Source of the DNA: Elusimicrobia bacterium HGW-Elusimicrobia-2
Lineage (GTDB): Bacteria; CG03
Length of the DNA: 40,204 nt
Assembly: GCA_002841685.1 (NCBI GenBank)
Contig: PHAM01000007.1
Span: 1-40,204, forward strand
Direction: 5' to 3'
The position numbers were made by a program, and so were the translations under genes. This document shows positions 2 to 40,204 of this stretch, piece after piece (within the stretch, counting starts at the first letter, position 1; each line of letters opens with the position of its first letter). Under the pieces are notes generated by a model. The model saw only the letters and a program-made list of their open reading frames with translations, was not told where the DNA came from and ran no database searches.

Positions 2-1954
2 CAGTGGGTGGAATTTACAAGCAATGACAGTTACGCGGTACTCCCGTCGTCATATCAGTTTACGACGACGGATGCCGGAGTGCATTCATGGACAAACGGA
101 GTGACATTCAAGACATCCGGAGCGGGGAAGAAGCTGACTTTGCAGGATGAAGACGATGTCCCCGCGATTTCAACGACGACGACATACGGGGTAATTCCGG
201 GCGATTTGCAGTATTTCCAGGTGAGCGTCACTCCGCAGGCGGGAGACCCGAATAAAGCAAAAGGAATAACCGCCGGTTGGCTGTCGGAAATCGTGGTTAC
301 GGCTTATGACGGACAAAAGGATTATAACGCTTCCGCGCGGACGGGAGGGAATATAAAGACGAATTATGTGGGTACGGCAAAATTCAGCGCGTCCGATTCC
401 GCGGCGCGGATACCGGCTGATTATAAGTTTACGACATTCGGCAGTCCCGACGACGACGGAAGCCACACATGGGCCGTTGCCTCGTCTACGGGAGTGACTT
501 TCAAAACAAAGAATATGAACGGCGCGTGGCTCGCGGTCAAGGATTCGGTGGTAAGCGTTTCTTCCGGTTCGGCAAAAAATTTAATTATTTATCCGGGCCA
601 GAAAACGAGTTTTAATGTGACGGTCGCCACCGGCCCTCACACGGCCGGTCACAGTCCCGTGGATATGGCCGTTTCCGCCGTTGACTTGTACGGCAATAGA
701 TGTTCAACAGGGAATTATAATTATACAGGCGCGGCGGCATTTACTTCATCCGACGGTAAAGTTTATTTTGGGAACACAAAATCGACGACGACATATACTT
801 TTACAACAGGCGTCGGAGGGGACAACGGTTATCATTTGTTTTCTTCCACAGTTCAGTTCAGAACAGTGGGAACACATTTGGTAAACGCGAATGACGGTTC
901 AATCACAGGCCAGAAAACCGGGATAAAAGTGAATCCCGCCCCCGCGAGCAAATTTACAGTAACGGTTTCAACAACTGTGACGGCAGGCGTATGGAATACT
1001 GTCACCGTTGAGGCGCTTGACGTTTATAACAACAGAGACACAAATTACGATTCGCTTTACGATGACGGCGAAGGAATAAAATTCAGCGGTTCCGCGGGAA
1101 GTTCTTTTGATACGGCCTGGCCGGCCGGCACAGAGGACTTTCTCGCCGTATCGCTTGGAATTCAAGAATATTCGGAACAGGCGAAATTCATAATTGCGGG
1201 GACAGGGAATTCTGTCACGGTTTCTTCAGGAGCAATTACGGGAACGCAGTCGGGCATTAAAGTCCAAAACGCTGCCGCAAATTATTTTACGCTTGACCAG
1301 TACACAAATCCGCTTACGGCGGGAGCGCAGTCATTTTTAAGGGTGACGGCAAAAGACGCATTCGGGAACAAGTGCGCCGACCCTGCATATACAGGGGGAG
1401 TTGAATTTACCTCATCTGATAGCGGGGCAAAATTTGACACTTACGCCGCGGCCGGAGAGCAGTCAACATACACTTTTGTGACAGGTGACATCGGTTGGAA
1501 GACATTTTCGGGGGGGCTTGGCTTCCGGCTTTATACAACGGGGCCGCAGGAAGTGAGGGTTCACAGAATCGCCGGCTATTCTGTGACCGGGGCGACAGCT
1601 ACGATAACCGTTAATCCCGCGACGCTTGACCACTTTGCCGTCGGGTGCTCTACAAATCAGACATTCGATGAAAGATATTCAATAACCGTTGAGGCAAAAG
1701 ATATTTTTGAAAACAGGGTGACGGTTTACGCGGGGACAATCACATTTTCTTCCCTTGGCTCGCCTGTTGATTTTATACCGGCAACATATAGATTTTCTTC
1801 CGGATACGGCGGCGCGGATTATGGTATTCACATATTTGAAGCTGCGAATTACGGCGTAAAATTTTCAACGAGGGGAACATGGTATGTGAAAGCAGCGGAT
1901 AACAGCGCAGCTAAAGAGGGACAGCAGTCCGGAATTTATGTTACGACCCGCCCT
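2..1954 (+). repeat. Type A Ig-like array 1 (six domains, first one cut by the window edge)
   Basis: Domain starts are about 2 (partial), 197, 596, 938, 1271 and 1619. Shared features are a TAG segment followed by VTV.A.D..(N/G)N (for example TVEALDVYNNR and RVTAKDAFGNK), a strand with F.SSD, a LP..Y.F or P..Y.F segment, a GxHxF-like segment, and a G.(Q/T)(S/T)GI.V.. ending. This resembles bacterial Ig-like (Big_1/invasin-like) stalk domains; the exact Pfam family is not established here. The second domain has a distinctive TAYDG insertion that recurs at the second position of the other two A arrays, so the array matches arrays 2 and 3 domain for domain. The last domain leads straight into type B with a PDS..TFP junction. 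Confidence 0.85.
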
Positions 1955-4900: not shown

Positions 4901-7900
4901 AATATTACGCCATCTACCGGAGCGACGGTAAAAATAATGGATGCGGCAGTGAAGCTCGGCGAAAAAATGACTGTCGGCGAAACAAAGGTTATTTATTACG
5001 CCGAATCAAGTTGGAATACCGAGACAGTAAATTCTTCTTACACGGCGATATTAAGCGCGGAGCAGTGCGTTGATACGACAACCGTTCAGTCAATTCCCGC
5101 CTCTCAGTTTGATGGGGCGCTCATTGACGGAAATAAATATAAACTGAAAATTACGGGGCAGGACATTGCGGGCAATCAGGACGACGGTTCGTGGTTTACC
5201 GGCGGCACAATTTTTGACCAGACTGAGCCGGCCGCGAATATTGCATATCCTTATAGATATTACAATTCGTCAATGACGGTAATTTCTGGGGCCGCGACAG
5301 ATAATCCTGTTGTCGCGGGGGCATTCGCAAGCGCTGTGGATTATAATCAGATAAAAATAACAAAAAATCCCGGAGGCACTCCTTCATACTGGGACGGTTC
5401 AAAGTGGCAGGGAACAATTTACTGGCTTGCTTGCGCGGGAGAATCTCCATGGACTTACACTTCCGCGATCAGTACCGCGTTTGTTCACAGTATTGAGTAT
5501 CGCGTTGACATTATCGCAACCGATAATTCCGCTAATACTCAAACAACCGCGAATAACTATGTATTCAAAATGGACACAAACACGCCTCAGGGTGAGGTGG
5601 CATACCCTGTTAACGGGAATTATTACAAAACAATGACGAATCTTTCAGGGCCGGCGACCGATGATTTAGCCGATATTGAAACAACGGGCGTTTTGATTCA
5701 GATAAAGAAAGCCATCGCCCCTATTAAGTATTGGTCCGGGTCTATATGGGATAATGATGAAAAATGGTTGCAGGCGACTTATGAGCCTGCGACGGATAAT
5801 TGGAGTTATGCATCCGGACCCGACGGAAGCGCCGCGGGCCTCGGCGCGCATGACGACGGCACGAGTTATGAGGTAAGGGCAAGAATTACGGATAAGGCGG
5901 GAAATCTGCGTATTTCAAATACCATAACTTTTTACAACGACATCACCGGCCCGTCTGCCGGTGTGAGCAATGTAGCCGACGGCAGCTACTATAATGCTTC
6001 TGCATTGAGCGATATTGACGGCACAGCCCTTGACGTTACCGGAGGGATAAACAGAGTTGAAATTTGTGTGAAGGAAGAAGACGCTTTCTGGCATGATGGC
6101 ACAAAAGAATGGATTTCCGGTATAGCGAATATAAACTGGATTGTGGCATATGCCACGACGACGGTTCCTTATGAGGTATGGCATGTGACGGGAATCAACT
6201 GGATAGACGGTATAGACCATTATATATGGATGAGAGTTTATGATAACGCCGGCAACCTGACAAAATACGGTAATTTCGACGGCGAAGGCGCCGGCCAAAA
6301 TATAGACAACAATTTGATTTATCACAAAAAATTCACTTACGACGAATCGGCGCCGTCTTCGGAAATAATTGCCGACGACGGAATTGTGCCGGATAACCTT
6401 AGTTATTATAGTGTGAAATACGGCACTTTTACCGGCACATGCGATGACCCCGTTCCCGGCAGCGGTATTTCTTATGTGAAATGCAGGATTCAGAGAGCCT
6501 TCGACGGGAAGTGGTGGAGAAATACTTACTGGGGAGATGCGCTTGATCTGTCTGCTGATTACACTGCGCCTTCCGACTGGAAATATGTTATAGCCGATCC
6601 CACTGACAGAAACGTATTTTATGAAAAAACCGTAGAGAAGTATGTGTTTTACTCCATCGCTTATGATTTCGCCGGAAATATAGAGGCACTGACTGGTAAA
6701 TGCACTTTTTATTATGATGTTGTAAAACCGACTTCTTCCGTGAAACTTCCGTCCACAGCCGCTTCAAGCGAATATTACACAACGGGAAACTTGATAAACA
6801 CGAAAATCTGGGGCAAATCTTACGACGGTTATTCAGGGATAGATTATGTGCAGATAAAGATTTCGTCGGGTTCTTACTACTGGACAGGAAATTCATGGAC
6901 TGCGGCAAACCAGTGGACAAATACCAATGCAAATGTGTGGGCGTCCTCGTGGACATACATTTCGCTTCCTTCGTGGCAGAACGCCGCCGTCTATACGGTT
7001 GTAAGCCGGGCGGCGGATGTTGCCGGAAATTTTGAAGCTGCGCCTGTAAGCAAGTCATTTACCTATGATAAATCCAAGCCGTATTCGGTCGTGACAACTC
7101 CGGCCGACGGCGGCGGTTATGAGTCGTTGAGCGCAATTAGCGGAACCGCCGCGGACGATTTAAGCGGCGTGAATTATGCGGAAGTTTCAATACAGCAGAA
7201 TTTCGGGGATTTCAAATATTACGATATATCCAATTCATCCTGGAAAGTGTCGGTTATTTACAATACGGCAACTCTCAATGCGGGCAATTGGAACTGTAAT
7301 TCGTCAAATATTCCATGGGAAGACGATAAGGAATATAAGATACAATCAAGAGCGGTTGATAATGTAAGCATAGCCGAGACAAACCTGACGGATGGGTCGC
7401 AGAGCGTTTTCCATTATTATAAACCGGCCGCTTCACTGGCTCTCCAGAAGTCAAACGGGGATCCTTTCCCGACAGAAACAACGGCTGGGGTAATTATTCC
7501 CATAAAAGTGACCGCCCGAAACGCTGACAGCAGCCCGGCTAAATGGTATCAGGGAACGGTGGAATTTTTGTGTAAGTCCGCTTACGACACAGTGCCCTCA
7601 AGTTACACATTTACTACTGCCGATGCGGGGATAAAAATTTTTGACGGAACTCTTTCAACAACCACTCTTAAATTTGTTTACAGGGATGCCGCGAGCAACG
7701 TGACTGTCCGGGAGCTTGGCGGCGCTATGCCGAATCAGAAAGTGCTCAATGTAAAGTGGTCGGGGCTGTATCCCGACGGAAAATTCACAGTTTCCGGCAT
7801 AAATAATCCCGCCACGGCGGGAGTGGCGGAATCGCCCTTTGTTACGGCGTATGACGGAAAATGGGGAGCGCTCGGAAACAAGGTTGAGGATTACACAGGT

Positions 7901-10900
7901 AACGTCACTTTTACCAGCGACGATCCATATCCTGCCGTTCTGCCGTCAAATTACCAGTTTACATGCGGGACGCACACATTTACAGGTGAGCTGATTTTTA
8001 AAACAGCGAAGGCCTCCGGCGGATGGTATTTAACGGTTAAAGATGTGTCAACACAGACCATAACCGGTTCTCAGTCAGGAATTCTCGTAAAGCCCGGAAC
8101 GTTGGACCATTTCACGGTGTCGCAAATAGAGGACCCATTTACGGCGGGCGATTCCACCGGCGCTGTTGTTGAAGTTTTTGACGCATACAATAACAGAAAA
8201 ACGAATTATGCGGGAATCGTGATTTTTGGCAGTGACGATACTCACGGCTCGATAAAGCTGCCGTCAAATTATCAGTTTACATCGGGCTCGGGAGCTGATA
8301 ACGGCCTCCATAGTTTTTATAATTTTGAGGGCGACAGTATAACGCTCTGCACATCAGGAAGCAAATCAGTTTGGGCGAAGGATTCTGTTTATACGTTAAG
8401 GAGAGGCACCCAGACTGTGACAGTCAATCCGACTTATGCCTCTGCTTTTGTCGTGACAATGGACACTTTTAGTGTGACGGCGGGCGCATGGAATAATATT
8501 AACGTGAAGGCGGTTGACGCCTACGGTAACAAGCAGTCCGCATATACCGGCGCCGACGCCGTTGTGACTTTTACATCGAATAACGGAAGTTATGATACCG
8601 GCGGCACAGACGAGGTGACGAACGGCGAGAGGTTTTTTACTTCGTGGATACAATTGAAAGAATCAAGTGATCCTGACTCGACAAGGTTTTCTGTTACGGC
8701 CACCGACAGCGACGGTTACCCCGCTAACGGCAATACTCTTATTCAGGGAACGCAAAGCATAATAAAAGTTGATGCCGCGTCGGCGAATAAAATAGTTCTT
8801 ACGGGGGTTCCCGCGGGCGCTTCGGCGACGGCGGGATTCGCCGATACTGCGAATGTGAGGATAAGAGACGAATTTAATAATATGGTTTACTCATGGAGCG
8901 GAATAATTACGTTTCACACAAACGGCACCGATAATTCCGCAACTGTTGAAGCGAAAGTCGTGCCTTCCACTCAAACGCTTTCAGGAGGAGTGGGTAATTA
9001 TGCCGTTAAATTCTTTAGCGCCGGCTCAAACAGACAGTTGTGGGTTTATTCAGGCGCTCTTAGTTCCGCTTCAAAGACGGGCATTACTGTAAGCCCCTCG
9101 GGTCTGCATCATTTTGGCGTTACTTTAGGGGGGCTCAGTGAGGGCCTCGCTGTGACAAAAGACAGGGCTATAAATCTTACCGTTGAGGCTCAGGATGTTT
9201 ACAATAACAGAGTGGCGAGTTATATTTCAACCGTAACGTTTTCCTCGGATGATCTTCCGGCGGATCTTCCCGCGACGTATCATTTTTCGTCAACAACTAA
9301 TGCGGGAATTAAAACGTGGACGAATGGCGTGACCTTCCATTCGTCCAATACGTCCTCGGGCTGGAGAGTGCAAGTTGTTGACGCCAACACGGCGGAAGAG
9401 GGTTACAGCCAGTATGCCAAAGTCCTGCTCGCCCCGGACTCGCTTGTGACGATGCCGATGGATAATTTACATGCGAGCGGCCTGTCAATATCAAGCGGCA
9501 CGGCTTATCCGCATAATGCATCTTACGCGCAGTTGACGGGAGTGAAACTTCGGATGCAGTGCACGCAGGGCGTGGCCGCGACAGTAAATAAATACTGGAA
9601 CACGGTTTCCTGGCAGACGGACCCATACTGGCTCGGCTGTAATTATAAGGTATCCGGCGGAACATTTACATTTTCGTCGATGCCTAACTGGAATTCGTAT
9701 CTTGACGGTTCATTAAACGGGAAATTTGAATTCGCGAGCGTTTCATATGATACGCTTTTCGGAACGGAAACAGTGGGCGCTGTCAACACTTTTTTCTGTG
9801 ATAATGGCCTGCCGACTGCCGGAATATCTGTTCCGGCCTCCGGAAATTATGCTTCAATCGTGAGTATTGAGGGCACATCCCAGGATCCCGGTTCTTTTTC
9901 AAACATCACAAAAGTAGAACTTCAGATAAGTTATCTTAATGTTCCGACAACATATTACTGGGATGAAGCAGGAGCGTCCACGACGACAACGCCCACATGG
10001 TTTTCGCAGAACGTAAATGCCGTGGATTTAACTTTTGACGGGCCCACCGAGGACTGGATATATAATTCCGCGGGAGTCTGGTGGCAGAATCAGAAATCGC
10101 ATACGATAAAAGTCCGAACGAAAGACTCGGCGGGGAATACGGGAGTTACCTCACAGGTAGTTGTCACTTATGACACGGATGTTCCGGATTCGGATATAAA
10201 CTCGCCGTCAGACGGGGCAGTAGGAAATTCAGAACCGGTAATTTCCGGAACGGCCCAGGACACACAGGGTATCGGTTATGTGCGGGCTCGAATTAGAAAG
10301 AAAGAAGGCGGAACAACGGACAAGTGGTGGGACGGCTCGGCATGGCAGACATACGAGTCCTGGCTGGGCGGCGCGACGGGCGCATGGGGAAATTCTTCTG
10401 TAAATTGGAGTTTTACCGTCCCCGGCAGTCCTTTTGCCGAAAACACGACATATTATTTTACATCAAAATCTACGGATACGGCGGGAAATACGGAGCCCGA
10501 TCCGGGAAGTTTAACAGAGAGAAAGTTTATCTACGACACTGTGAAACCGACTGCGACGATTATTTCTCCGCAGGATAGTGATAACAAGAACTGGAGTTTT
10601 GTGAATGTTACGGGAACATCATTTGATATGAACGGGATTGACAAGGTTGAAGTTGTCCAGAAGAAACTGAGCGACTACTGGAGCGGTACGCAGTGGGTGG
10701 ATGAACTCAAATGGATTACCGCGGGGACCGCTGATACTTTTGCGAACTGGCTCAGTTCAGCAACTTGGATTGACGGGCAAGACCACCGTATATGGGTGAG
10801 AGTCACGGACAAAGCAGGCAATAAGACCGCTTATAACACGGAATCCGCTGGGACAATAGAAAGCAATAACGGTTATGCGGTGAAGTTTTTGTATGACGCT

Positions 10901-13900
10901 TCAACCCCTACAAGCGGCGTGGATTATCCTGCTAACAGTGGTAATTATAATGTGAAAATCCCCACCTATACGGGCACTGCGGTAGAACCGGAACAAGGGA
11001 CGCAGTCGGGCGCTTCCGAGGTAAAAATCAGAATAAGGAGGAGCAATAAAAATGCGAACAGGTGGTGGCAGGTTAATTCGTGGATAGCAAGTGAATACGA
11101 CAACTCTACTAGCCTGACGGGTGAGGACTGGTATTTTGACATCGTTGAAAAAGGCGGCTCTCTCAGCGTGTTTTATCCCGCCGGAGGCGAGGAAACTTAC
11201 GAACTTTACACGAAGGCGAAGGATTATGCCACCAACGAAGAAACCTGGCAGCTGAAGACGACGTTCAAATATGATGTTGTGAAACCGACTTCGTCCATAA
11301 CATATCCCGTAAATAGTCAGTATTACACTTCCGTAGCGCCGGCAGAAATTAAGGGCGGGATGTTTGATAATTATTCGGGAGTTGATTTTGTGAAGGTTAA
11401 GATCTCGTCCGCCTCGTATAACTGGACAGGAAGCTCGTGGACAACAGCCGCGCACTGGCTTGACGCGAATGTTTTTACATCGTCCTGGACATACACTTCA
11501 CTCGCCAGCGCCTGGCAGAACGCCGGAGTTTATAGCATTACAACTTATGTTTCGGATAAAGCGGGCATGATACAGTCGTCCACGCCGACAGTTTCTTTCA
11601 CTTATGATTCAAGCGAGCCGAATTCTTTTATTAGTGTTCCGGAAGACAGCCAGATGCGTGAAGAGTTGCTTGTTGTTAAGAGCACCGCTTCCGACGCTCT
11701 TTCCGGAGTTTCCGAGGTGAGAATGGCCGTCCAGCAGGATTTCGGTAATTATTTTTACTGGTCTTCAACGGCCAGCATCTGGACAAACGGGCCCATATAC
11801 AATACCGCCACTGTTAACGCGGATTTTTATGAACTTGACACTTCGCAGATACAGTGGGTTAATGACAGCTGGTATAAAATTTATTCCAAAGCCTATGATA
11901 AGGTGGGTATAGTGGAAACGTCTCCGGATATGAATTTGTTCAAGTTCGTCAAACCGGCGGTGAGCCTCTCTCTTGAATTTATAGGAGGCGGTGATATAGC
12001 GGGCTCAACTCTTACTGCGGGAGTTGAATACGATATAAGGGTGAGGGCGCTTAATGAGGACCTCACCCCGGCGCTGGCTTTTGACAAGACTATAACTTTT
12101 TCAGTTGTCGGCGGAGGTAATCCCGCCGAGGATATTTTGCCGGATGATTACACCTTTAAGATAAGCGATGGCGGCGTTCATAATTTTGATTTTGCCACGT
12201 CCACAGGGATAAATCTTCATCAAACGGGCTCATGGTCGGTAAAAGTAGAAAGGCAGGGCGGCATTACTCCTCCCTCGTCTGACACGGATGCCGTTTATGT
12301 CAAATGCGGCGCGATTTCAAAAATGACTCTTACGGGAGTTGCCGCCGAAGTGACGGCGGGGGTAGCCCTCTCTCCCGTTGTAAAGCTTTATGACGGACAG
12401 TACGCTCCCGACGGAAACAAAGTTGACGATTACGCCGTTACCGTGCAATTTGAAAGCACAGACCCGTATCCTCTGACAAAAGGCGACGGTCTGCCGGTTG
12501 ACTACACATTCGTGACGGAGGGCGGCGGCACTGATGGAGGAGAACATCTATTTTCGGGCTTATTGAAAATGAAGACAAGAAATGAAACAAGCGGTTGGAC
12601 GGTTAAAGTTAAAGATAAAGATTTCCCCGCGGTTTATTTTGATGAGATAACGGTTAAGGTAAAACCCGCAGCGCTTCATCATTTTGCCGTGAGCGGTTTG
12701 CCGGATCCGTATGCAGCGGGGCTGAGCACGCACATAACGGTTGAGGCCAGAGATATATTTGAGAATAGGAAGACGGATTACGCAGGCACAATTGAATTTA
12801 ACACAAATGATACGCACGGCTCGAAGCAGGTGCCGGGGAATTATACGTTCACGACTTTCGGCTCGCCGGAAGACGACGGGATACACACTTTTGAGCCTTC
12901 GGCCGGTTCAAGTGTGACATTGTGCACGACGGGTAATATCTATGTGAGAGTGAAAGATACGGCTTACAGCCTCTGGCAGGGCACACAAACTGTTACGGTG
13001 AATCCCGCGACGAGGAATCATTATGAGGTTACTTTTGCGACAAATCTGACGGCCGGCGTTTATTACAACATTACCGTTACGGCAAAAGATCAGTTCGGGA
13101 ATATTGATACGACAAATGATGATGCTGTTGAGTTTGTGACGAATGAACCTGTCACATATTATGACCTTCCGACGGGCGGTGTGAACCTGGTCAACGGAGT
13201 GAAGACATGGTCAGATACCGACGGCGTCGCTTTAATGAAATCCTCGTGGACATCAGCGGGCGTTATTACCAGCCCCTGGGAAGTTAAAGCCCAGTGGGTG
13301 GATAATCCTTCTTCGATATACGGCAGTAAGCAAAATATAAAAGTCAATCCGCTTTCTGCTTCAAAATTCAGCGTGAGCGGAATAGCGAGCCCCTTTACGG
13401 CCGGAAGCGAGGATCCGTTCTACGTGACGGCGCTGGATAAATATGACAACCGCGATGTGAATTATTTATCCACCATCACTTTTAAGTCGGATAACGGGTC
13501 GTGGTCTGTGTCGCCTTCAACTTATGTTTTTGTTCCCGCCAGCGACCGCGGGAAGCATCTTTTAAACGTCATATTAAATAACACAGGTTCCAACGGTTCC
13601 AACTTTTATGTTGAAGCGTGGCAGAGCGTGCCGTCTTCTCCTACTCTCAATGGTCAGCAGTCGCCCATAGAAGTGGTGCATGCCTCTTTCAGCGGCTTCA
13701 GTTTGTCGGGTATTGCCGATCCTCAAAGAATAGATTATGTGACTTATAACGTTAAGGCGCGTGCGCTGGACACTTTTGGCAATACCGTGACGAACTATGG
13801 TTCAACAGTGGCTTTTTCCTGCGCGACCGATCCTCTTATGATTGTCGCGCCCGCACAGTACTGGTTTCAGGCCTATGATAACGGCGTGGCTACTTTTACC

Positions 13901-28900: not shown

Positions 28901-31900
28901 ACATATAAACTTATTCCCGGCGGCAGCGATAAGGCGGCCAATGTGGTAGTTAACTATTCCACTTCCGTATTTTATTACGATAATTCAGCTCCGGCGTCAG
29001 AAGTTAAAATTCCGGTTGACGGCAATTACTATAAAGATACAAATCTGTCTTCTCTCTCGGGTACATCATCCGACATGCCGGATACAGCCGGCTTAACCAA
29101 TGCCGGACTCAGTAAAGTTGACATAAAGCTTCTTGATACGAATGACGGCGCCTGCTGGACGGATTCGGGCTGGTCAACCACGACGGTTCAATGGCGTCTC
29201 GCGGACGGCACAACAAGCTGGTCATTCACATTTAATCCCACAAACTGGGAAACAGGTCATAAATACACTTTAACGCCGCGCGGACTGGACAATATTTCTA
29301 ATGAAGAGACCATTTTTTCTACGGCGACTTTTTATATAGATTCCGATGCGCCGGCATCTCATATAGCCACGCCCTCGCAGAACGCCAATGTCGCGTCACT
29401 TTCTGAGATTAATGGTACTTCGTCTGATCTTCCGACGGGTGGCGGGCTGTTTAATTCCTCGGTGGTAAATATGAAAATACAGGTTTATGATTTAACAGCA
29501 GGCTCGACCGGTTACTGGAACGGAAACGCATTTCAGACCGGCGGCATATGGCTTTCCGCAGCGGGGACGGGTTCATGGTATTATACGGTTGTTTATTCCA
29601 CAATGTGGGATAACGGCCACACATACAGAATAAAATCCAAAGGGCAGGATACCGCCGGAAATATTGAGACGCCTTCAGCGGGTACAGTTTTTAACTTTGA
29701 TGAACAGGACCCCGAATCCACGGTCACCGCGCCGCAGAATAATCAGCATGTAAAATATCTTGACACGGTTTCCGGCACATCTTTGGATAATCTTTCCGGA
29801 GTGAAGACGGTTTATGTTTCAATAAAAAGAACTGCCGACTCGTGGTACTACGACGGAGCGATTTTTGTAAATACCAGCGGCGTTCCGACATGGAATAATA
29901 TTGGTTCGGCGGCATCTCCCTGGAATTTCGCGGTTTCATCTTCCGTGTGGGAAAACGGTAAAACTTATACGGCGCAATCCTATGCGGAAGATAATGTGAC
30001 GATACCATCTTCTAATACCGAAGTTCCCGTTTCCTCCAGCACTTTTGTTTTTGACACTTCCGTTCCCGCGTCCGGAGTTGCCGTGCCCGAAGACGGCGAA
30101 GCTTATACCGGCAAACCGGTTATAGACGGCACGGCGCAGGATGATTCGCCGGGCATTATAAATAAGGTTGAGGTGAGAATATGGCGTGAAGCGGGGCCTA
30201 ATTTCTGGTGGAGCGATTCTTCCGGATGGGGCGCGAACGAATCATGGAATATGGCTTACAGCACATCAGCCTGGACGGTGTGGCATTCAACTTACACAGA
30301 AAAATTTGCGATTGAGGCGCAATATAAAATAGCTTCCCGCGTGACGGACAAAGCGGGCAATATTGAAGTCGTTACGTCCTCTAACACTTTTAAGATTGAC
30401 AGAAGCTCGCCTACTTCGGAAATAGAAGTTCCTTCGCCCGGTGATTTTTATCAGACAACGGAGGTCTCCGGCACTTCCGACGACGCCGGCCCCGGCTCAT
30501 CCGCTTCGGGTGTTAGTGTGGTTAAAATTCAGATAAAGAAGTTTATAGCCGGTACCACACATTACTGGTCAAATTTCAGCCATTTTGACACAACCGATGA
30601 AAATTGGGTAGACGCCTCGGGATTTGCTCCGTGGGATTTCACCACTATAGAGGACGCTTATTGGGTGAGCGGTTATCAGTACCAGGCAAAAATTAAATCA
30701 AGGGATTTTGCGTTAAACACGGAAGTAAATTTACCGTCTATTAATTTCTTCATAGATAAAGACGCTCCGCTGTCGGGCGTTGTGACGCCGCCGGATAATT
30801 CTTACAAAAAAGAGCTGACAGCGATTAAGGGCACGGCAAAAGACGAACCTTCCTCGCTTTATAATTCGGGATTAAACAATGTGAAGGTGCGAATTTATGA
30901 CAATACAACAGCCAATCCGGAAAAATACTGGGATAGCGGTAATAACATATGGTCGTCAACCTCAACATGGAATAGTACATCTCTTTTTGTTTCTTCATGG
31001 TCATACAATTCAACGAATGTGACTTGGACAAATGAGCATGTGTATAAACTGAATGTCAGGGCTTGGGATAATCTGTCCATTGCGGAAGTAGCTTTCACGA
31101 CTAAAACTTTTACATTTGATAATGTCGCGGGAAATTCTGTTATAACGCTTCCCGTAAACGGCGGTGAATATAATTCAATGCTTTCTATTTCGGGAAACGC
31201 TAACGCGTCGCCCGCGCCTCCCGCGAGCGTTCAGGTTGAAATTGCCGACACCACTCCCAACCCTGATCTTTATTGGAACGGTTCCACCTGGACAATAACG
31301 GCTGTGTGGAATGGCGCGTCCGCTCCGCCTGCGTGGTCATACACCGTTGATTTTAATACTGTCACATGGAAAGACGGGCATCTTTATTTTATAAGGACGA
31401 GAGTGTGGGATGAGGCGGGGAACGATTCGGTTCCCGGCGGCGCGGGGAATTCCTTCACTTATGATATAACAAAACCGAATTCGGGCGTTTCATCTCCCTT
31501 GGATAATTCTTATATCAATTCGCTTTCGCAGATTTCAGGCACATCGTCGGATGAAAAAACAGGTATTGATTATATTAAAATTCTGATAACCCAGGATCCG
31601 TATGGCACGCCGCAGTATTGGGACGGTTCTGTGTGGTCGCCGTCGGCGGATAACTGGCGCGCAACGAAACTTGTTGACGGCGTGAAGGGCGGACTTTCGG
31701 AAGATTGGTCTTATTCCGTTTTGAAAGCCACTTCCTTAACCAGCGGAACGCAATACAAAGTTCAGTCGTCGGCGTGGGATGAAGCCGGAAACTTTCAAAT
31801 TACATATCCTGAGATTGAATTTACGGCTGACTTTGATGAAGCTCAAACAGCAATAACATGGCCTAATGAAGGCGGCACGTACACCGTTGATTTCTCTTCT

Positions 31901-34900
31901 TTTGCCGGCACCGCTGTAGATAACGAAAGTTTTGTAACAAAGACGGAATTTTCGCTGCTGAATAAAAATACGGCAAAATATTATCAATTGGGTTCCGGCT
32001 GGGTGAGTGGCAGATACTGGAACAGTGTTTCCACAGCAAATCTGCCGACTTGGTCGTATAACCGTCCGGCCCTTGCGTCCAACAGCGATTATCAGCTTGT
32101 CGCGAGGTCTTATGATTCCGCGAACAACATGGAAATTTCCTATTCTACGGTGAATTTTACCTATGACGAGACCGGCCCGGCAAGTCAGGTAACAATTCCC
32201 GCCGATGGTATTCTTATAAATGAGCTTGCTCAAATAGAGGGGACAGCTTATGACGAGACGGCGGGTGTAGGAGAGGTTGAAATTTATATTCATGATTTTA
32301 TTCAGGGGAGATTTTGGACGGGGCTGTGGATGGCAACCACGACGATTCAATGGGTTGGCGCGGATATTCCATCTCCCGGCGTCGGCGTTGTCGCATGGGA
32401 ATACACGGGAATTAATCAGAGTAACTGGGTCGCTAACGGAGACACACAGTATAGAATTCGCCCTCGCGCGAAGGATAGCGTAGGCAATACGGGCGTTCTC
32501 GGCTCTACTCATACATTTACTTTTGATGTGACGCAGCCTGAATCGAGAATTACAAAACCGGTGAGCGACGGTGTTCATTTAAATGTTCTCTCAAGCATTG
32601 ACGGCACCGCCTACGACGTGACCGCCGGAATTGACAAAATCTATTTGAGAATTAAGAGAAATACAGACGGCTACACATGGGCGGGTTCGTCTTTTGTTGC
32701 CGCGAGCAGCCGTGTTCTTGCGACGGAGCTTACGCCTGACGCCACGAAATGGACTTACACTTCGCTTCCCAGCTGGGTGAGCGGGTCTTCCTATACGCTG
32801 AATATCCAGTCGCTGGATTTTTCAACAAACTGGGAAACGGATTTTACGACAATGACGTTTGTGTGGGATACGACGGGCCCTGAGACGGCCGTAACAGCGC
32901 CTGTTGGAGCCAATCTTTACGCACCGGGTCAGATAACCGGCACAGCATCCGACGCGGTGGGTTCCGTGGCGCTGGTTGAGCTCCGAATAAAAAGAATTGC
33001 CGACGCGAAATATTGGAATCCTGTTGACGGTTCTTCATGGACCGCCGCCGACACATGGTTTGACCCCGGCAATATAAGCTGGTTTTATAATGAAGGGTTA
33101 TGGAATTGGGCGAAAGACAATCAGTACAGCGTTGAATGCCGCGGCACCGATGAACTCGGAAACGTTGAAATCGCTCCGTACGATAAAAAAACTTTTAAGA
33201 TTGACCAGGATGCCCCATCCTCGGGAATGACAAAACCCGTTCATAACGGCAGATATTACGCTCTTAATGAAATAACGGGCACATCAGCAGACCCCGGAAG
33301 TTATCCGACGCTTGTGGCCAGAACCATGGTGGCAATAAAACACGGCACCGATTATCTGCAAAGCGACAAATTATCGTGGGGCGCGGGCATTTCTTCTTTT
33401 ACCGCGACGGGCACCCCGTGGACGGTGACGCTTGACACCAACGCCTGGAAGGACGGTGACACCTACACTGTCCTGACGAGAGCGTATGATAATACCGGAA
33501 ATGCCGAAGCTGAAGGAAGCCCCGACGCGGCAAACGCCAAAAATTTTATATCAGACAAAACAAAACCGCAATCATTGATTGTCAATCCCGTGCACAATGT
33601 TAGTAATTATGACAATTTGTCCCAGCTTCCGAGAATAGACGGAACGGCCTTTGATGCTTTTGGAGTGTCGCAGGTTGAAATTTGGGTCAAAAAAACCCTC
33701 GGTAATGTTTACTGGGACGGCGCCGCATGGGGTGATTTTGAAACCTGGCTGCCCGCGAATTTGTCGTCGGGAGCCACTTACTGGTGGTATGACAGCGTTA
33801 ATTTTAACACATCCTGCGACTATCTGGTCAAGTCAAGAGCTTATGATTCGGCGAATCCGGTCAATGCCGAAGCCGCCGGTACGGAAGGCGCCGATAACTT
33901 TCACCGAGCGACAATTGATATGAACGCTCCTGATTCTCTTATCCAGACACCGGCCGCCGGCGCGACGCTCAGTTCTTTGCCGGGTACGGCAATTGCCGGC
34001 ACAGCGGTTGATACGCAAAGTGATATCACTTTTGTAAAAATAAGGGTTTCCGATATTACCTCTCCCGCCACAAAATATTATAATCTTGCGGGATGGGACA
34101 CAAACTCCGCCAACTGGCATAACACCAACTTCGTGTCCGGAATGAGCATTACATGGGACGCTGACGGCCTTAACATTACAGACGCGATTTGGACTTCTGG
34201 CTATAATTACCGTCTTGAAACATTCGCTAAGGATTCGGCGAACCCCGAAAATACTGAGGTCACTTATTCAACGAAGACATTTACTTTTGACGCGGCGCCT
34301 CCGGTGTCCGGAGTGAAGTTTCCCGTTCATAACGCGCATTATAAATCCGGCGCTCTCGGACAAACGATCACAGGAACGGCCACAGACGCCACTTCGGACG
34401 TGGAATATGTTTATGTGAGTATTCTTGAAGAAGGCACGGCGAAATGGTTTAACGGCGCCGGTTTCCTTTCGGACACGACTTCTTGGCGTGATACGGGAAT
34501 TACTTTGGGCGCCACCAACTGGAGTTATACAAACGCGGCGATTGCCTGGACGAACGGACAGAGATATCTTTTTAAGACATACGCGATTGATGAGATAGGG
34601 AACACTTCGGATCCGACATCGGGTTTGAGAATTGTTTATGATACAGCCGAGCCGAATTCTTCGGTTACAAATCCTGCGGATGGTTCCACGAAGCAGAAGG
34701 ATACTCTTTCTCTTCTTTCAGGGAACGCTTCGGACACCTCACCAGGGCTTGTTAATAATGTGAAAATTTCTCTGATGATAAAAGACTATCCTGCTGGCGG
34801 GACGAATTATCACTGGGACGGTTCCACATGGACGGATAACGGTGGAAGTGACTTGTGGCTTGCCGCGGAATATACGCAGGATACGCAATCGGGCGTATGG

Positions 34901-37900
34901 TCATATTCTTTTACGGCGTCAAAATGGGTGACGGGGAAATATTATGAGTTAAAGACAAAGGCGCAGGACAAAGCGCTTAATCCCGAAACAAGCTTTGGGC
35001 TTTCAACTTTCAGAGTTGTAAAAGAAGCTTCTGAATTCGCTGTGAATGTTGTGGGCGCGGCGCCCGCAACAGCAGGGTCATTCTATGACGTAACGGTTAC
35101 CGCAAAAGACAACGAAGGGAACATTGCTTTAACTTATGAAGGAACTGTCAAGTTTGTCACAAAAGATACGCTTGCCCTTAAAGGCCATCCGGCCGCAGAA
35201 TGGGCGGAAAGCGATATACAGACTTATGGGGTTGGCTTTGACACGTATACATTCAAACTTGCGGAAGAAGGTTATCATCTGTTCAATAATCTCGTGAGAT
35301 TTAAGACGGCATCTCTTGGCGCGGGCACTCTTAAATTTGTTCTTGTTTATGATACGGCATCCGTCGCTGATACCGAAGCGCCGGATATTCTCGGAGAGCA
35401 TAAGAACATTGTTGTAAATCCGAAAGCTGCCGACCGCATTCAGGTCATTCTGCCGGGTGAAACGGCAGTTGCCGGCATAACTTCGGGCAAAATAGATTTG
35501 CCATCCCCTCAAACCGCGGGCGCGGGATTTTATGCGACCGTCAAGATTTGTGATGAATACTGGAATGTCACAACAGCCACAAACACAATAAACATTACAA
35601 CAACTGACCCGAATGACACTAATCCCGGCAATAAATACGTTTCGGGTTCTACAACGACGCAAATCACGATGCTGACTGCCGGAAGCAGAGATGTTGAAGC
35701 GTTTTCCGTCGGCGGGGTTTTTAATGATTTTGACAAAGACAATCCATATAATAATTCTGTTACGGTTGCCGCTGATGTGCCTACACGCCTCCAGGTCATT
35801 CTTCCGGGGGTGACGGCTAAGCCCGGCACTCCATTGGGCAAAGAAAATACTCCGACGGCGCAGCCGGCCGGCGTTGAATTTACGGCGACTGTTTACGCGA
35901 CTGATTCCAACTGGAACGTTAACACTTCCACAACCGTCTGGGCGGGTTTTGAAACGACGGATATTTATGATACGCCCACGTCAAGCAAATCTCTCGCAAG
36001 CGGCCAGACACAGGTAATCTTCAAGATGTATGAGGCAAAGGTGCAGACAATCACCGCGACAAATTTAGACAGTTCGCTTATTGAATCAAAAGCCGCCCTG
36101 ACGATTAAGTATGGCGCGGGGCAGAAACTCCAGGTGCTTGTCCCGGGTGAAAATTATCTACCGGGTTCGTCGCAGGGTAAAGATGGCGCTGTGCAGGAGC
36201 AGACGGCCGGAGTGCAGTTTACCGTGACGGCGCGTCTTTGCGACGATAACTGGAATGTTAAAACGGATTCGGCGGTTACCGTCGCTGTGACTGGCAACGA
36301 CCCGAACGGCTCTGTCCCCACGCCTTATATGATTACAGGCGTTGGGCCGTTTAATGTGACATATAAAACGGCATGGCAGGGAACTGTCCAGGCGACATGG
36401 ACGGTGACGGGGACTGCCGCGGGATGGACTTCCTACACTTCCGCTAAAATTTCCGTTAAGCCGGCTTCCGTAAAACATCTGCAGGTTCTGTTGCCCGGTG
36501 AGGAGTCCTCTCCCGGCTCATCAACGGGAAAAACCGGCTCCGTTTCCACGCAGACGGCGGGAGCCCAGTTTATAATAACGGTGAAAGCTGTTGACGAATT
36601 CTGGAATATACAGCCCACATCCAATCCTATCGTAGGCATTGCTGTGAACAGCGCTTATTTTGAAAAACAGAGCGCTCATGGCCTTGTAAACGGAACGACA
36701 GTTTTCTGGATGCTCCTCAAAGACGCCGAAAGAGACCCGTGGAAGATAACCGCTTCAACTTCGGACGGCAAATCTATTCTGCCCGATATGTCCTCGGATA
36801 TATATGTGCAGGGCGCCGCGGTCCAAAAACTTATGATTCTCGCTCCCGGCGAAATTTGGAATCCCGGATCCAGTGAAGGCAGAACGGGTGTTCCGTCGAC
36901 CAGAACAGCAGGCGTTAATTTTAATATGACATTAAGGACAGTGGACGCTTACTGGAACCAGTCAAATTCCGTCGCGAATGTAAAATTGACATCGACTGAC
37001 CCGAATAAGAATGAAGTGACGGGAATTGCCTTCAATGGATTACAGGTGCAAACATATGCTTTAAGAACGGCTAACAATTCATGGTCGGTGACCGTTTCAA
37101 CTACGGCCGGAGAGAATTTTGCTTCTCATACGACGCAGAATATTTATGTTGATCCCGCCTCGGCGAGCCGGCTTCTTGTTATCGCTCCCGGAGAAACATT
37201 TGATGAGGGTTCTGCCGACGGTAAAGATGACGCGCCGATTAATCAGACGGCAGGGACTCCTTTCAACATAACTGTTATTGCTTGCGACGCTTACTTTAAT
37301 AAAACAACGGTTGAACCCACGGTGGGAATTACAACCACCGATCCGTATGACGGCGCCATAGCTTCACAGCAGCTTGTCGCGGGCGCCACGACATTTATGC
37401 TCAATTTCAGAAAAGCTCATTCATCATGGACAATAACGACTTCAAACGACGGAGGCTATGCTAATAACACTTCTTCGCAGATTTATGTTAATCCCGGCAC
37501 AGCGATAAAGCTTCAGGCTCTCGCTCCCGGCGAAACTGCCGACGACGGCAATGTGTCAAACGGCGGAAAATCGGGTTCTGTCAATGAGCAGCAGGCGGGC
37601 GTGAGTTTTACGGTGACGGTGCGCGGCGTGGACCAATTCTGGAACTTACAGGAATCCGCGGTGGCGGAAGCGATGCTTACAAGCAATTATGCCGGAGATT
37701 ACATCGTTCCTGTGTCATCGCCTTTGGCCGGTGACGGCTTGGCTGTGTTCGATGTGTCTCTTGTGAAAGCTAACACCACCTCGTATCTTACAGTTGATGA
37801 TATAGACGGCATAGCGCTGGCGCAGTATAATCACGCGGGCATAAAATGCGTTCCGGGCTCTCCCGCGTATCTTATGGTTCTTCTGCCAGGCGAGACACAA

Positions 37901-40204
37901 ACTCCCGCTGTAGATCCCGGAAAAGAAGACCCGCCGACGGTTCAGACAGCCGGAGGAGAGTTTATATTTACAGTGCTGTCTGTTGACAGTAATTATAACA
38001 TAACTCCGACGACGGCAACCGTGCAAATAGGTTCGTCCGATTCAAATGCCGTTGTGCCCTCAACGAATACGCTTGTAAACGGAACAACAACTTTTACGCT
38101 CACTCTGAAAACGGCAAACGCTTACAGAACGGTTTTTGCCGGTGAATATGATACGGGCTACGGTTTTTCTTCCAATGCTGTTTCAACTTCAACGGTGTAT
38201 CTCAATCCTGACAACCCCGTAAAGCTGGCCGCTATTCTGCCGGGGCAAACCTACGGCCCCGGAACGCAAAACGGAAAATCCGGCGCGCCCGCGCAGCAGA
38301 CGGCAGGTATTCAATTTACCATAACGGTCCGGGCGGTTGACGAATACTGGAACACAAACGCATCAACAGCTCCGACAGTTTCAATAACGCTTGAGGATAC
38401 CAACGCGCCGCCCCCCGACAACAGAGTTCTTAGCAACGGTGTGTCAACATTTACGGTGACATTTAAAACGGCTGATGCGCTTGTGGGTAAAAAATGGACA
38501 ATAACAGCGGCGGATGTTACCGGGGCGCTTGTCTCGACGATAACCGCCGAGGTACCAGTGATGCCCAACTATAACAATAAACGCCTGCTTGCGGTTCTTC
38601 CGAATCAGACAAGAACTCCCGGCCAAAATCCCGGAAGAACGGGAACCGTTTCATGGCATGCCGCCGGCTCCACTTTTACTATTACGATTTATGATACGGA
38701 TAATAATTTTAACCTGTGCGACGGCAGAGGAGGCGGAAATTATCCTGATGTTTTTATCAATTCCACTGACGGATATGGCTTTGATGAGGGTGACAAGTTT
38801 CTTCTTAACGGCCAGCGGGATTTCTGGATTAGTCCGAGAATAGCGAATACCACTCACACTGTTACCGCGACCGCCGCCTCTTATACGCAGAATATTTCTT
38901 CTCAATATGAAGTGAAAGCGGACACGAACGATTACCGATTGATTACGCTTCTGCCGGGTATGACTTATGACCCGGGTTCGGATAGCGGTTATCAAGATTC
39001 TCCTGATTCACATCTTGCCGGCTCAACATTTACGGTCAATGTGAAAGCTGTTGACAGGCACTGGAATCTGCTCAATACGAGAACGGATGAGGTGACGCTT
39101 GCCGTAGCGGATCCGAATGCCGGTATTCTCGTGAATCCGCAGTTCCTCACTTTCGGCGAAAAGAATTTTGATATTGTACCGAAAACCGTCGGCTCCACAT
39201 GGACCGTGATTACATCGGCCGGAGGATATGTCACTTACAGAACGCCGCAGTTTGAAATTACTCCGTCTCCCGCGGTCAAACTCCAGGTTCTGCTTCCCGG
39301 CGAAACCGCCGTTCCGGGGACAGTCGCGGGCAAAACCGGAACGCCGGCCAATCGGGTTGCGGGCGAAGTATTCACGATTACGGTGAATGCTGTGGATGAT
39401 GACTGGAACAGAAATAATCTTGACAATCCTCTTGTGGGCATTACCACAACTGATCCAGATGATACCCATCCCGGCAATAAATATCTTACGAATGGAGCGA
39501 CGACATTCGTGATAACGTTTAAAACCGCGAACAGCTCATGGACAATAACCGCGGTCGACCATGCCGGCGGAAGAAGCTCTTATGCAACGGGCGTTTCCGC
39601 CGGGGTTTATGTTAATCCCAATACGCCCGTAAAACTGCTTGTTCTTCTGCCGGGCGAAGCGGATGACCCCGGTTCCGCGCCGGGCTCCGAGCCATTCGGC
39701 GGAAGCGAAGGAAAATCAGACTGGACGCCTGATAATCAGACGGCGGGGGCCGCATTTACCGTCACGGTTAAGGCTGTTGACTCATGGTGGAACATAAACA
39801 CCGGCACTTCTCCGACGGTGGAGATAACATCTACCGATAGCAATGCTGATTTGAGCGATAATAACAAAGCCCTGACGAATGGAACGACAACGTTTAGTGT
39901 GATAATGAAAACGGCTAATACATCATGGAAAATCGGAGCGAAAGATGTTGCGGTGGTTTTAAGCTCATATACGAGTCCCGCGGTTTATATTAACCCTAAT
40001 GAGCCGACAAGATTGAGGATTATTGTGCCAAACCAGACGAGGACTCCCGGCACCGTCGCCGGCAAGAGCGGCGGCCCCTCAAACAGAACAGCGGGCGCGC
40101 AGTTCACTATAACCGTTGACGCCTGCGATGACTGGTGGAACACAAATGCTGCGAGCGCTCCGCTAGTGGCGATAACAAGTGAAGACACAAACGCGAGTCT
40201 GCCG
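2..40204 (+). CDS. Internal fragment of a giant Ig-like repeat protein (at least 13,401 residues)
   Basis: One reading frame, with codons beginning at base 2, has no stop over 13,401 codons and runs off both window ends. The translation is coherent throughout: rich in Thr, Ser, Gly, Asp, Tyr and Trp, poor in Cys, and built of about 113 tandem beta-sandwich-like domains. Domain order is A x6 (the first cut by the window edge; residues 1-651), B x15 (652-2475), A x6 (2476-3145), B x7 (3146-3985), A x6 (3986-4668), B x58 (4669-11674), A x1 (11675-11807) and C x14 (11808-13401). Bacterial proteins of this make-up are usually secreted surface stalks, adhesins or fibres. That role is inferred, because no enzyme domain, signal peptide, membrane segment, sorting signal or secretion domain is visible; the true N and C termini lie outside. 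No internal start is proposed: Met codons occur inside domains and the domain pattern is continuous across them. No frameshift or premature stop is seen. Alternatives such as several genes or a pseudogene are excluded by the unbroken frame. Confidence 0.97.
1955..7426 (+). repeat. Type B Ig-like array 1 (15 domains, units 1-15)
   Basis: Unit starts: 1955, 2291, 2666, 3056, 3425, 3788, 4160, 4514, 4892, 5231, 5588, 5954, 6356, 6731, 7082. Mean length is about 122 residues. Each unit typically has a P.D/P.N turn near residue 8, (S/T)GTA.D near residue 25, V.I.I strands, a YW.G..W aromatic insert, SSWTYT, a W..G..Y strand, D.AGN.E and a closing F.YD...P. The D.AGN motif is common in bacterial Ig-like and FnIII-like domains. 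Unit 9 is degenerate (separate entry). Units 12-15 match units 19-22 in order, and units 3-8 match units 28-33, which gives this block a composite look. Pure structural repeat; no catalytic residues recognised. Confidence 0.85.
4892..5230 (+). repeat. Degenerate type B domain (unit 9)
   Basis: This unit keeps the length (113 residues), the ITPS opening, a late D.AGN and the closing FDQTEP of type B. It lacks the (S/T)GTA.D motif, which is replaced by a stretch around AAVKLGEKM, and the aromatic insert is reduced to ESSWN. It may be a diverged B unit or a different Ig-like subtype inserted in register. The frame is intact and both borders are normal. Confidence 0.6.
7427..9436 (+). repeat. Type A Ig-like array 2 (six domains)
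   Basis: Domain starts: 7427, about 7760, 8096, 8432, 8774, 9098; mean about 112 residues. The array follows a KPAASL junction. Position 2 carries the TAYDG insertion. Position 3 has DTHGS, TLCTSG and GTQTVTVNP, found again at position 3 of array 3. Position 6 ends APDS..TMP before type B resumes. Position-for-position agreement with array 3 (offset about 4.53-4.58 kb) shows that the six domains were copied as a block, not singly. Confidence 0.85.
9437..11956 (+). repeat. Type B Ig-like array 2 (seven domains, units 16-22)
   Basis: Unit starts: 9437, 9815, 10187, 10550, 10910, 11288, 11621; mean 120 residues. Unit 16 opens MPMDNLH and matches unit 23 (MPFNNLH), which likewise follows an A array. 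Unit 19 has W.DG.DHRIWVRV, shared with units 12 and 26. Unit 20 has TYTGT and IRR, shared with units 13 and 27. Unit 21 has the W.GSSWT.A..W pattern of units 14 and 28. Unit 22 (QQDFG, YNTATVNA) matches unit 15. With A array 2 this block makes one full copy of the 13-domain cassette. Confidence 0.85.
11957..14005 (+). repeat. Type A Ig-like array 3 (six domains)
   Basis: Domain starts: 11957, 12308, 12668, 13007, 13352, 13682; mean about 114 residues. It enters through a KPAVSL junction like array 2 (KPAASL). Position 2 carries KLYDG. Position 3 carries DTHGS, TLCTTG and GTQTVTVNP. Position 4 carries TAG(V/A)xxNI.V like its counterparts. It leaves through EPVS..AMP into type B. Domain order is the same as in arrays 1 and 2. 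Confidence 0.85.
18665..22441 (+). repeat. 10-domain B cassette, copy 1 (units 36-45, positions a-j)
   Basis: Starts of positions a-j: 18665, 19052, 19430, 19835, 20201, 20567, 20975, 21344, 21707, 22085. Hallmarks: a = YYP.GSPS.LSGTA; b = DPGEINEVKVRI; d = SDGASG.HP.GV and KVTEPSAN; e = WYGN; f = LQIDPNG and STSS.SSD; g = DPAPNVEA; h = GTVTDDFGG; j = W.DGH.Y. Order and spacing recur in the following copies. The preceding unit at 18311 looks like position j of an earlier partial copy (W.DGH.YKIWCKAYD.AGN). Confidence 0.75.
22442..26083 (+). repeat. 10-domain B cassette, copy 2 (units 46-55, positions a-j)
   Basis: Starts of positions a-j: 22442, 22844, 23183, 23543, 23912, 24257, 24644, 24986, 25346, 25715. 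Position a repeats YYPEGSPSSLSGTA, e repeats WYGN, f repeats STSSFSSD, g has STPSGLNADWSY (as in copy 3) and h repeats GTVTDDFGG. Position d lacks the DGASG signature seen in copies 1 and 3, so copies have diverged unevenly. Confidence 0.75.
26084..29713 (+). repeat. 10-domain B cassette, copy 3 (units 56-65, positions a-j)
   Basis: Starts of positions a-j: 26084, 26456, 26783, 27176, 27530, 27914, 28277, 28649, 28994, 29354. Position b repeats PGIVNEVKLRI; c repeats KYYKT and W.SGHQY; d repeats SDGASG.HPAGV and KVTEPSAN; f repeats IQIDPDG; g repeats STPTGLNADWSY and PAPNVEAGH. These are the clearest matches to copies 1 and 2. Confidence 0.75.
29714..33217 (+). repeat. 10-domain B cassette, copy 4, more diverged (units 66-75)
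   Basis: Starts: 29714, 30068, 30413, 30770, 31133, 31478, 31847, 32180, 32540, 32882. Position b keeps SPGIINKVEVRIW, c keeps WVSGYQY and f keeps TQDPYGTP (compare QIDPNGTPP). Other positions are hard to assign by eye. Unit 80 (34655) again has a b-like SPGLVNNVK, so a fifth copy may start out of step, about 13 units after b of copy 4. Confidence 0.5.
35024..35422 (+). repeat. Single type A domain at the B-to-C switch
   Basis: About 133 residues. It has ATAGSFYDVTVTAKDNEGN, an EGTVKFVTKD strand, a GYHLFNN segment and an IVVNP ending, all type A features. It is longer than the usual A unit because of the segment between the VKFVTKD strand and YTFKL. It stands alone between 58 B domains and the C array, so it is the only A domain outside a six-pack. 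It may be a remnant of another array or a linker fixed at the class boundary. Confidence 0.75.
35423..40204 (+). repeat. Type C 'LPGET' Ig-like array (13 full domains plus one cut by the window end)
   Basis: Unit starts: 35423, 35783, 36116, 36464, 36815, 37157, 37496, 37856, 38210, 38567, 38921, 39266, 39620, 39998 (partial). Full units average about 117 residues. Consensus: (K/R)L.VLLPGET..PG...GK.G, QTAG..F.(V/I)TV.AVD..WN, ITTTDP(N/D)D, L.NG.TTF.(V/I).(F/L)KTA, SWTI.A and (I/V)Y(V/I)NP. From memory, this repeat is common in very large surface proteins of poorly studied bacterial phyla; I cannot name a Pfam family for it. The TAG..F.VTV.A.D..N core resembles type A, so C may be a related fold with a different N-terminal hairpin. 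Unit 10 is the most diverged (LPNQT, a CDGRGGG insertion). The array continues past the window end. Confidence 0.85.

Follow-up and report, generated by a model that had tools for sequence, protein, structure and literature searches.

The window analysed here is the complete contig C42 (40,204 bp, no Ns) of Elusimicrobia bacterium HGW-Elusimicrobia-2, whose MAG (G000) comprises 1.78 Mb in 94 contigs and is 96% complete. It is occupied from edge to edge by the middle part of a single intact bacterial gene, other pieces of which lie on further contigs of the same MAG. Frame +2 contains no stop among the 13,401 codons between bases 2 and 40,204; the five other frames contain 1003, 634, 348, 584 and 639 stops, and none of them stays open for more than 283 codons; mononucleotide shuffles give a mean of 687 stops in frame +2, with a minimum of 656. 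Codon-usage phase, a weak test, preferred frame +2 in 49 of 67 windows, the remainder pointing to an antisense frame with hundreds of stops. Scans of the window for tRNAs and Rfam RNAs found none. A preliminary description had proposed one gene of at least 13,401 codons with neither end visible, and both points hold, since the frame has no stop, the domains are in register throughout, and the edges that cut the gene are those of the contig itself. The features of the window are as follows.

2..40204, + strand: 13,401 codons from the interior of one giant gene, running off the contig on both sides
2..1948, + strand: B-type block 1, six filamin/invasin-like Ig-type domains, the first partial (profile tiling)
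1949..7417, + strand: A-type block, 15 Trp-rich bacterial Ig-like domains of ~121 aa each (profile tiling)
7433..9433, + strand: B-type block 2, six domains (profile tiling)
9431..11950, + strand: A-type block, 7 domains (profile tiling)
11993..14005, + strand: B-type block 3, six domains (profile tiling)
14000..35017, + strand: A-type array, 58 consecutive Ig-like domains (profile tiling)
35030..40204, + strand: one B and 14 C-type Ig-like domains ('LLPGET..PG') (profile tiling)
40136..40204, + strand: exact in-frame overlap of 69 bp with the start of contig C74 (sequence match)

With regard to domain content, Pfam recognised scattered bacterial Ig-like domains, few of which individually passed the Big_* cut-offs, and three profiles were therefore built for the tiling. 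Together they place 113 Ig-like domains over 13,271 of the 13,401 residues, the largest gap being 14 aa, in the block order B6-A15-B6-A7-B6-A58-B/C15, where A denotes the Trp-rich class, and B and C are both filamin/invasin-like Ig-type domains. The A7-B6 unit differs in copy number among relatives, and the C-type array runs on into contig C74 with nine further C domains, so that the whole chain would carry about 150 Ig-like domains. AlphaFold2 models of an A and a C domain are confident beta-sandwiches (pLDDT of 94.1 and 93.8, respectively). The A profile finds the MpAFP RII structure 4p99 (E 5e-10), SiiE and an RTX adhesin; for the B/C profile, the matches are an intimin/invasin-type protein and Ig domains of S-layers; and Foldseek searches against the PDB returned generic Ig-like matches only. 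The tiling, the predicted fold and the 4p99 match make this region a BIg-fold array. Neither a ligand-binding or catalytic domain nor, more specifically, a hydrolase domain was recognised by Pfam/NCBIfam in the pieces scanned.

The A copies share a mean identity of 31%, and the A58 array shows a weak higher-order periodicity of 10 and 20 domains, which suggests old block duplications; from the low identity and the faintness of the periodic signal, the array is taken to be old. The 10-domain signal is also present in contig C2 of a relative (G007). Tandem Repeats Finder, run on the window DNA, detected no near-identical tandem array and a single short match.

The 3' end of the gene lies on C74, the only contig in the bin that shares the 3' end of C42. 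Past the overlap, the C74 frame, 3,847 codons in all, ends at a stop. The junction is spanned by single contigs in two relatives, namely, G007:C2, which covers C42 residues 6553–13395 and proceeds straight into C74-like sequence, and G011:C219, which does so from residues 9255–13395. C42 and C74 together encode at least 17,225 aa (1.87 MDa). A microcompartment locus adjoins the gene on its 3' side (C74 11593–15670: triosephosphate isomerase, phosphate propanoyltransferase, BMC shell protein and aldehyde dehydrogenase), and the same locus is found 3' of the giant gene on the syntenic contigs of G001–G003.

The same gene was found in seven further genomes of the phylum. In other MAGs, orthologous contigs account for almost the whole of C42 and keep its order, with the frame open and 60–93% identity; among them are single-contig ORFs of 9,254 and 12,757 aa, and in G009 the same block order is found on one 138-kb contig. 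Searches with the N-terminal piece on C88 (see below) gave matches in 8 of 61 genomes, all 8 within the phylum, and the C-terminal piece has matches in 14 of 16 phylum genomes, some of them through the shared sorting tail only. The dN/dS ratio is 0.14–0.21 for every aligned contig tested. The selection against truncation that the preliminary description had deduced from the open frame is thus borne out: purifying selection along the whole length, rather than chance or decay, keeps the frame.

These comparisons also bear on the soundness of the assembly. The preliminary description had named as its refutation a mis-assembly that joined several genes, and an artefact of this kind, by collapse of repeats or fusion of genes in the metagenome assembly, would suit a repetitive gene in a fragmented MAG, the more so as contigs of the giant gene break in every related genome and near-identical contigs occur in two bins. 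It is nevertheless very improbable: other MAGs reproduce C42 collinearly, the low dN/dS extends over the full length, and repeats that have diverged to 31% identity and form no tandem DNA arrays leave nothing for a collapse of identical repeats to act upon. Still more remote is a decaying pseudogene that happens to be open. One in-frame TAG is indeed present in G003:C135, a single substitution relative to the TAT of a 99.97%-identical contig, but the window has no stop at all, its dN/dS is low, and the frame is kept in every other orthologous contig of the relatives examined.

In other respects, the giant-gene contigs G001:C141 and G003:C135, which are 99.97% identical, belong to bins of different species, and the binning of these contigs is consequently unreliable. 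Synonymous divergence along the gene is very uneven, with dS from 0.1 to 2.5 between G000 and the G001/G003 segments; in flanking genes, it is 0.10–0.27 (G003) and about 1.0–1.6 (G001). Within one contig, G003:C165, dS relative to C74 falls from about 2.4 to 0.26, giving a mosaic. This patchiness suggests recombination, with misbinning or chimerism as a partial explanation. An exchange of genes across species was considered and set aside, since misbinning explains part of the pattern and only the within-contig gradients stand; these, including that of G003:C165, may themselves stem from chimeric assembly.

As to the 5' end, we infer that it probably lies on contig C88. Its ORF of 3,201 codons encodes A10-B6-A7 and part of a B domain, and begins, as judged by eye, with a basic n-region, a hydrophobic core and a VFA-type site, resembling a signal peptide. 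In C88, as in G007:C5, G008:C79 and G009:C57, the giant gene starts directly where a HEAT-repeat gene ends, and the HEAT-linked giant ORF of G007 and G009 continues into C42-like sequence. C88, C42 and C74, if one gene, would encode about 20,426 aa (2.2 MDa). C88 also carries mutS in two overlapping frames (1972–3888, 639 aa, and 3812–4504 for the rest); MutS is one ORF of ~850 aa in relatives, and the split reflects a frameshift or an assembly error. A TPR gene that lies upstream of the G003 N-terminus was looked for in G000 and not found.

A simple overlap between C88 and C42 was sought and none was found: the two ends are different versions of one position, the ~31 residues that close C88 and the ~31 that open C42 being 71% identical and falling at the same place in relatives. 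The bin may accordingly contain two giant genes, one starting on C88 next to the HEAT-repeat gene, and another that includes the window, ends on C74 and has an unassembled TIG-array N-terminus like those of G001, G003 and G007. This is a serious contender, if somewhat short of even odds. Besides the non-identical ends, it is favoured by the low identity of C88 (~31%) to what precedes the C42 orthologue on G001:C124, compared with 93% downstream, and by G003, where the genes syntenic with C88 lead to glycosyltransferases instead of the giant gene. However, a 96%-complete bin holds neither a second set of middle and C-terminal contigs nor a TIG-type N-terminus, and it is on this ground that a single giant gene is favoured, its junction being either unassembled or recombined. 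Furthermore, the HEAT-linked N-terminus reads into C42-like sequence in two relatives, and the identity between C88 and C124 does not stay at ~30%, but rises to 56–81% near the junction.

The MAG assembly has distributed a single gene among two contigs at the least, and probably among three. When a giant gene is taken as a frame of >20 kb, the 13,401 codons of the window are closed by a stop on C74 and, if C88 and C42 form one gene, opened by a start codon on C88. Of the terminal parts that the preliminary description had sought, the 3' one is thus located and the 5' one is only probable. Its placing of the gene among the largest bacterial coding sequences stands in so far as the gene is large, but the protein is about half the size of the 39,678-aa example from Omnitrophota (PMC10066038).

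Several elements point to a type IX-like route of export. The last 150 aa of the protein score 23.9 bits against TIGR04183 (T9SS type-A sorting; cut-off 23), a longer piece scoring 21.6, and the PF18962 tail model remains below threshold (16.4 bits versus a cut-off of 27). G000 also encodes a SprA-like ORF of 1,716 aa (C93 2995–8142; E 9e-44), whose match is made of collinear pieces and reaches 149 bits versus a curated cut-off of 200; a MotB-like gene lies near it (C93 740–1576). In G008, G009 and G011, a PorV/PorQ-family gene is directly downstream of the giant gene (122–133 bits versus a cut-off of 90). In the C-terminal pieces, no RTX family was found, and T1SS_rpt_143 scored 13.8 bits versus 66, so far as features of RTX/type I adhesins are concerned. 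From these signals, we infer that the giant protein is probably exported by a type IX-like system: the putative Sec signal peptide at the N-terminus on C88 would direct the chain to the periplasm, and the T9SS type-A-like sorting domain at the C-terminus on C74 would then take it through the SprA-like outer-membrane translocon.

The PorV/PorQ-family gene is also the first of a set of neighbours that recall motors, arranged in the relatives as follows.

G008:C132, G009:C65 and G011:C145, downstream of the giant gene: PorV/PorQ-family TPR protein, then FliF/FliG-like protein

In G009, the FliF/FliG-like protein is followed by a long uncharacterised protein, MotA and MotB. In the genus of the window, by contrast, the giant gene (G000–G003) is flanked on its 3' side by the TPI/PduL/microcompartment genes instead of this PorV-motor set. 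Elsewhere in G000, contig C48 carries FliG-like, MotA and two MotB-like genes (2330–5910) and, ~11 kb from them, a complete paralogue of 4,085 aa with parallel-beta-helix and Ig repeats and a similar C-terminal tail (16605–28859). FlhA (PF00771) is absent from all nine genomes, with control genomes positive, which makes a flagellum unlikely. From gene order, which provides a lead only, the giant fibre is possibly motor-linked, and a proton-driven motor could serve to anchor or move it. The full proposal, in which an aflagellate phylum would join a motor of flagellar type, made of MotA/MotB and a FliF/FliG-like fusion, to PorV/SprA-like export to display and drive an Ig fibre of ~20,000 residues, is speculative and, on present indications, rather unlikely.

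Taken with the predicted pI of 4.6, these features lead us to read the window as the central ~13,400 codons of a gene for a secreted, acidic, multi-MDa surface fibre or adhesin, with a probability of roughly 0.7. About 150 beta-sandwich domains would form an extender of roughly 0.6–0.7 µm holding the adhesin off the cell, at ~4.5 nm per domain and assuming the dimensions of MpAFP RII, a domain 45 angstrom long (PMC4083281). A mainly structural protein, forming an S-layer-like coat or mesh, or a factor for predation or host attachment, is a less likely alternative, to which we would give about one chance in four. The matches of the B/C profile to S-layer Ig domains are in keeping with it, and giant ORFs of Omnitrophota have been proposed as coat or predation factors (PMC10066038), but the block order and the run of 58 A domains resemble extender regions, and the scans recovered no hydrolase.

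Among known systems, MpAFP, a 1.5-MDa RTX-type ice adhesin with identical 104-aa repeats and a known ice-binding region (PMC4083281), offers a close parallel to the fibre or adhesin proposed here, with its very long run of bacterial Ig-like domains, the match of the A profile to its RII domain and the proposed extender geometry. It differs in the identity of its repeats, which contrasts with the divergence of the A copies, in being of the RTX type, where the tail of the present protein is T9SS-like, and in its ice-binding region, for which no ligand-binding counterpart was found. The SprB-type T9SS adhesins of gliding Bacteroidota are likewise large and repetitive, with a signal peptide and a C-terminal T9SS-type tail for which the giant protein has putative counterparts, although SprB is smaller; the likeness extends to the SprA-like translocon in the genome, and to the PorV/PorQ-family and motor-type genes adjoining the giant gene in relatives. 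However, SprB is a type B T9SS substrate (PMC10994853), whereas the tail is here type A-like, and the motor genes linked to the giant gene resemble FliF/FliG and MotA/MotB, not GldL/GldM.

The giant ORFs of Omnitrophota and Chlorobium chlorochromatii, to the first of which, and to those of Chlorobium, the preliminary description had likened the gene, are also single uninterrupted genes for predicted surface proteins in uncultured or small-genome bacteria, and the comparison holds for size and kind, homology being no part of it. The ORF of V. archaeovorus (Omnitrophota), cited above for its length, has 42 predicted TM helices, and the giant ORFs of Velamenicoccia are described as poorly conserved with few annotated domains (PMC10066038); the present gene, in contrast, is conserved across its phylum, and Ig-like domains tile it completely. 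SiiE, intimin-invasin and the Geobacillus S-layer Ig domains resemble it in single-domain sequence matches, but have other secretion systems, sizes and architectures. The gene is a new, conserved variant of the giant Ig-repeat surface proteins, a known class, in an unusual genetic setting, and its interest lies in the probable type IX export together with the FliF/FliG genes conserved next to it, which MotA/MotB join in G009.

Many reports of giant bacterial proteins concern one genome each, list few homologues and leave the export route obscure. Here, the block order is conserved across several families of one uncultured phylum, which makes the architecture, the selection and the neighbourhood readable. 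The neighbourhood leads to a testable hypothesis, namely, type IX-like export of a fibre of ~2 MDa tied to FliG/MotAB genes without FlhA. If the combined motor and export reading were true, these bacteria would possess a surface-motility or fibre-moving machine unlike either the flagellum or GldLM-SprB gliding.
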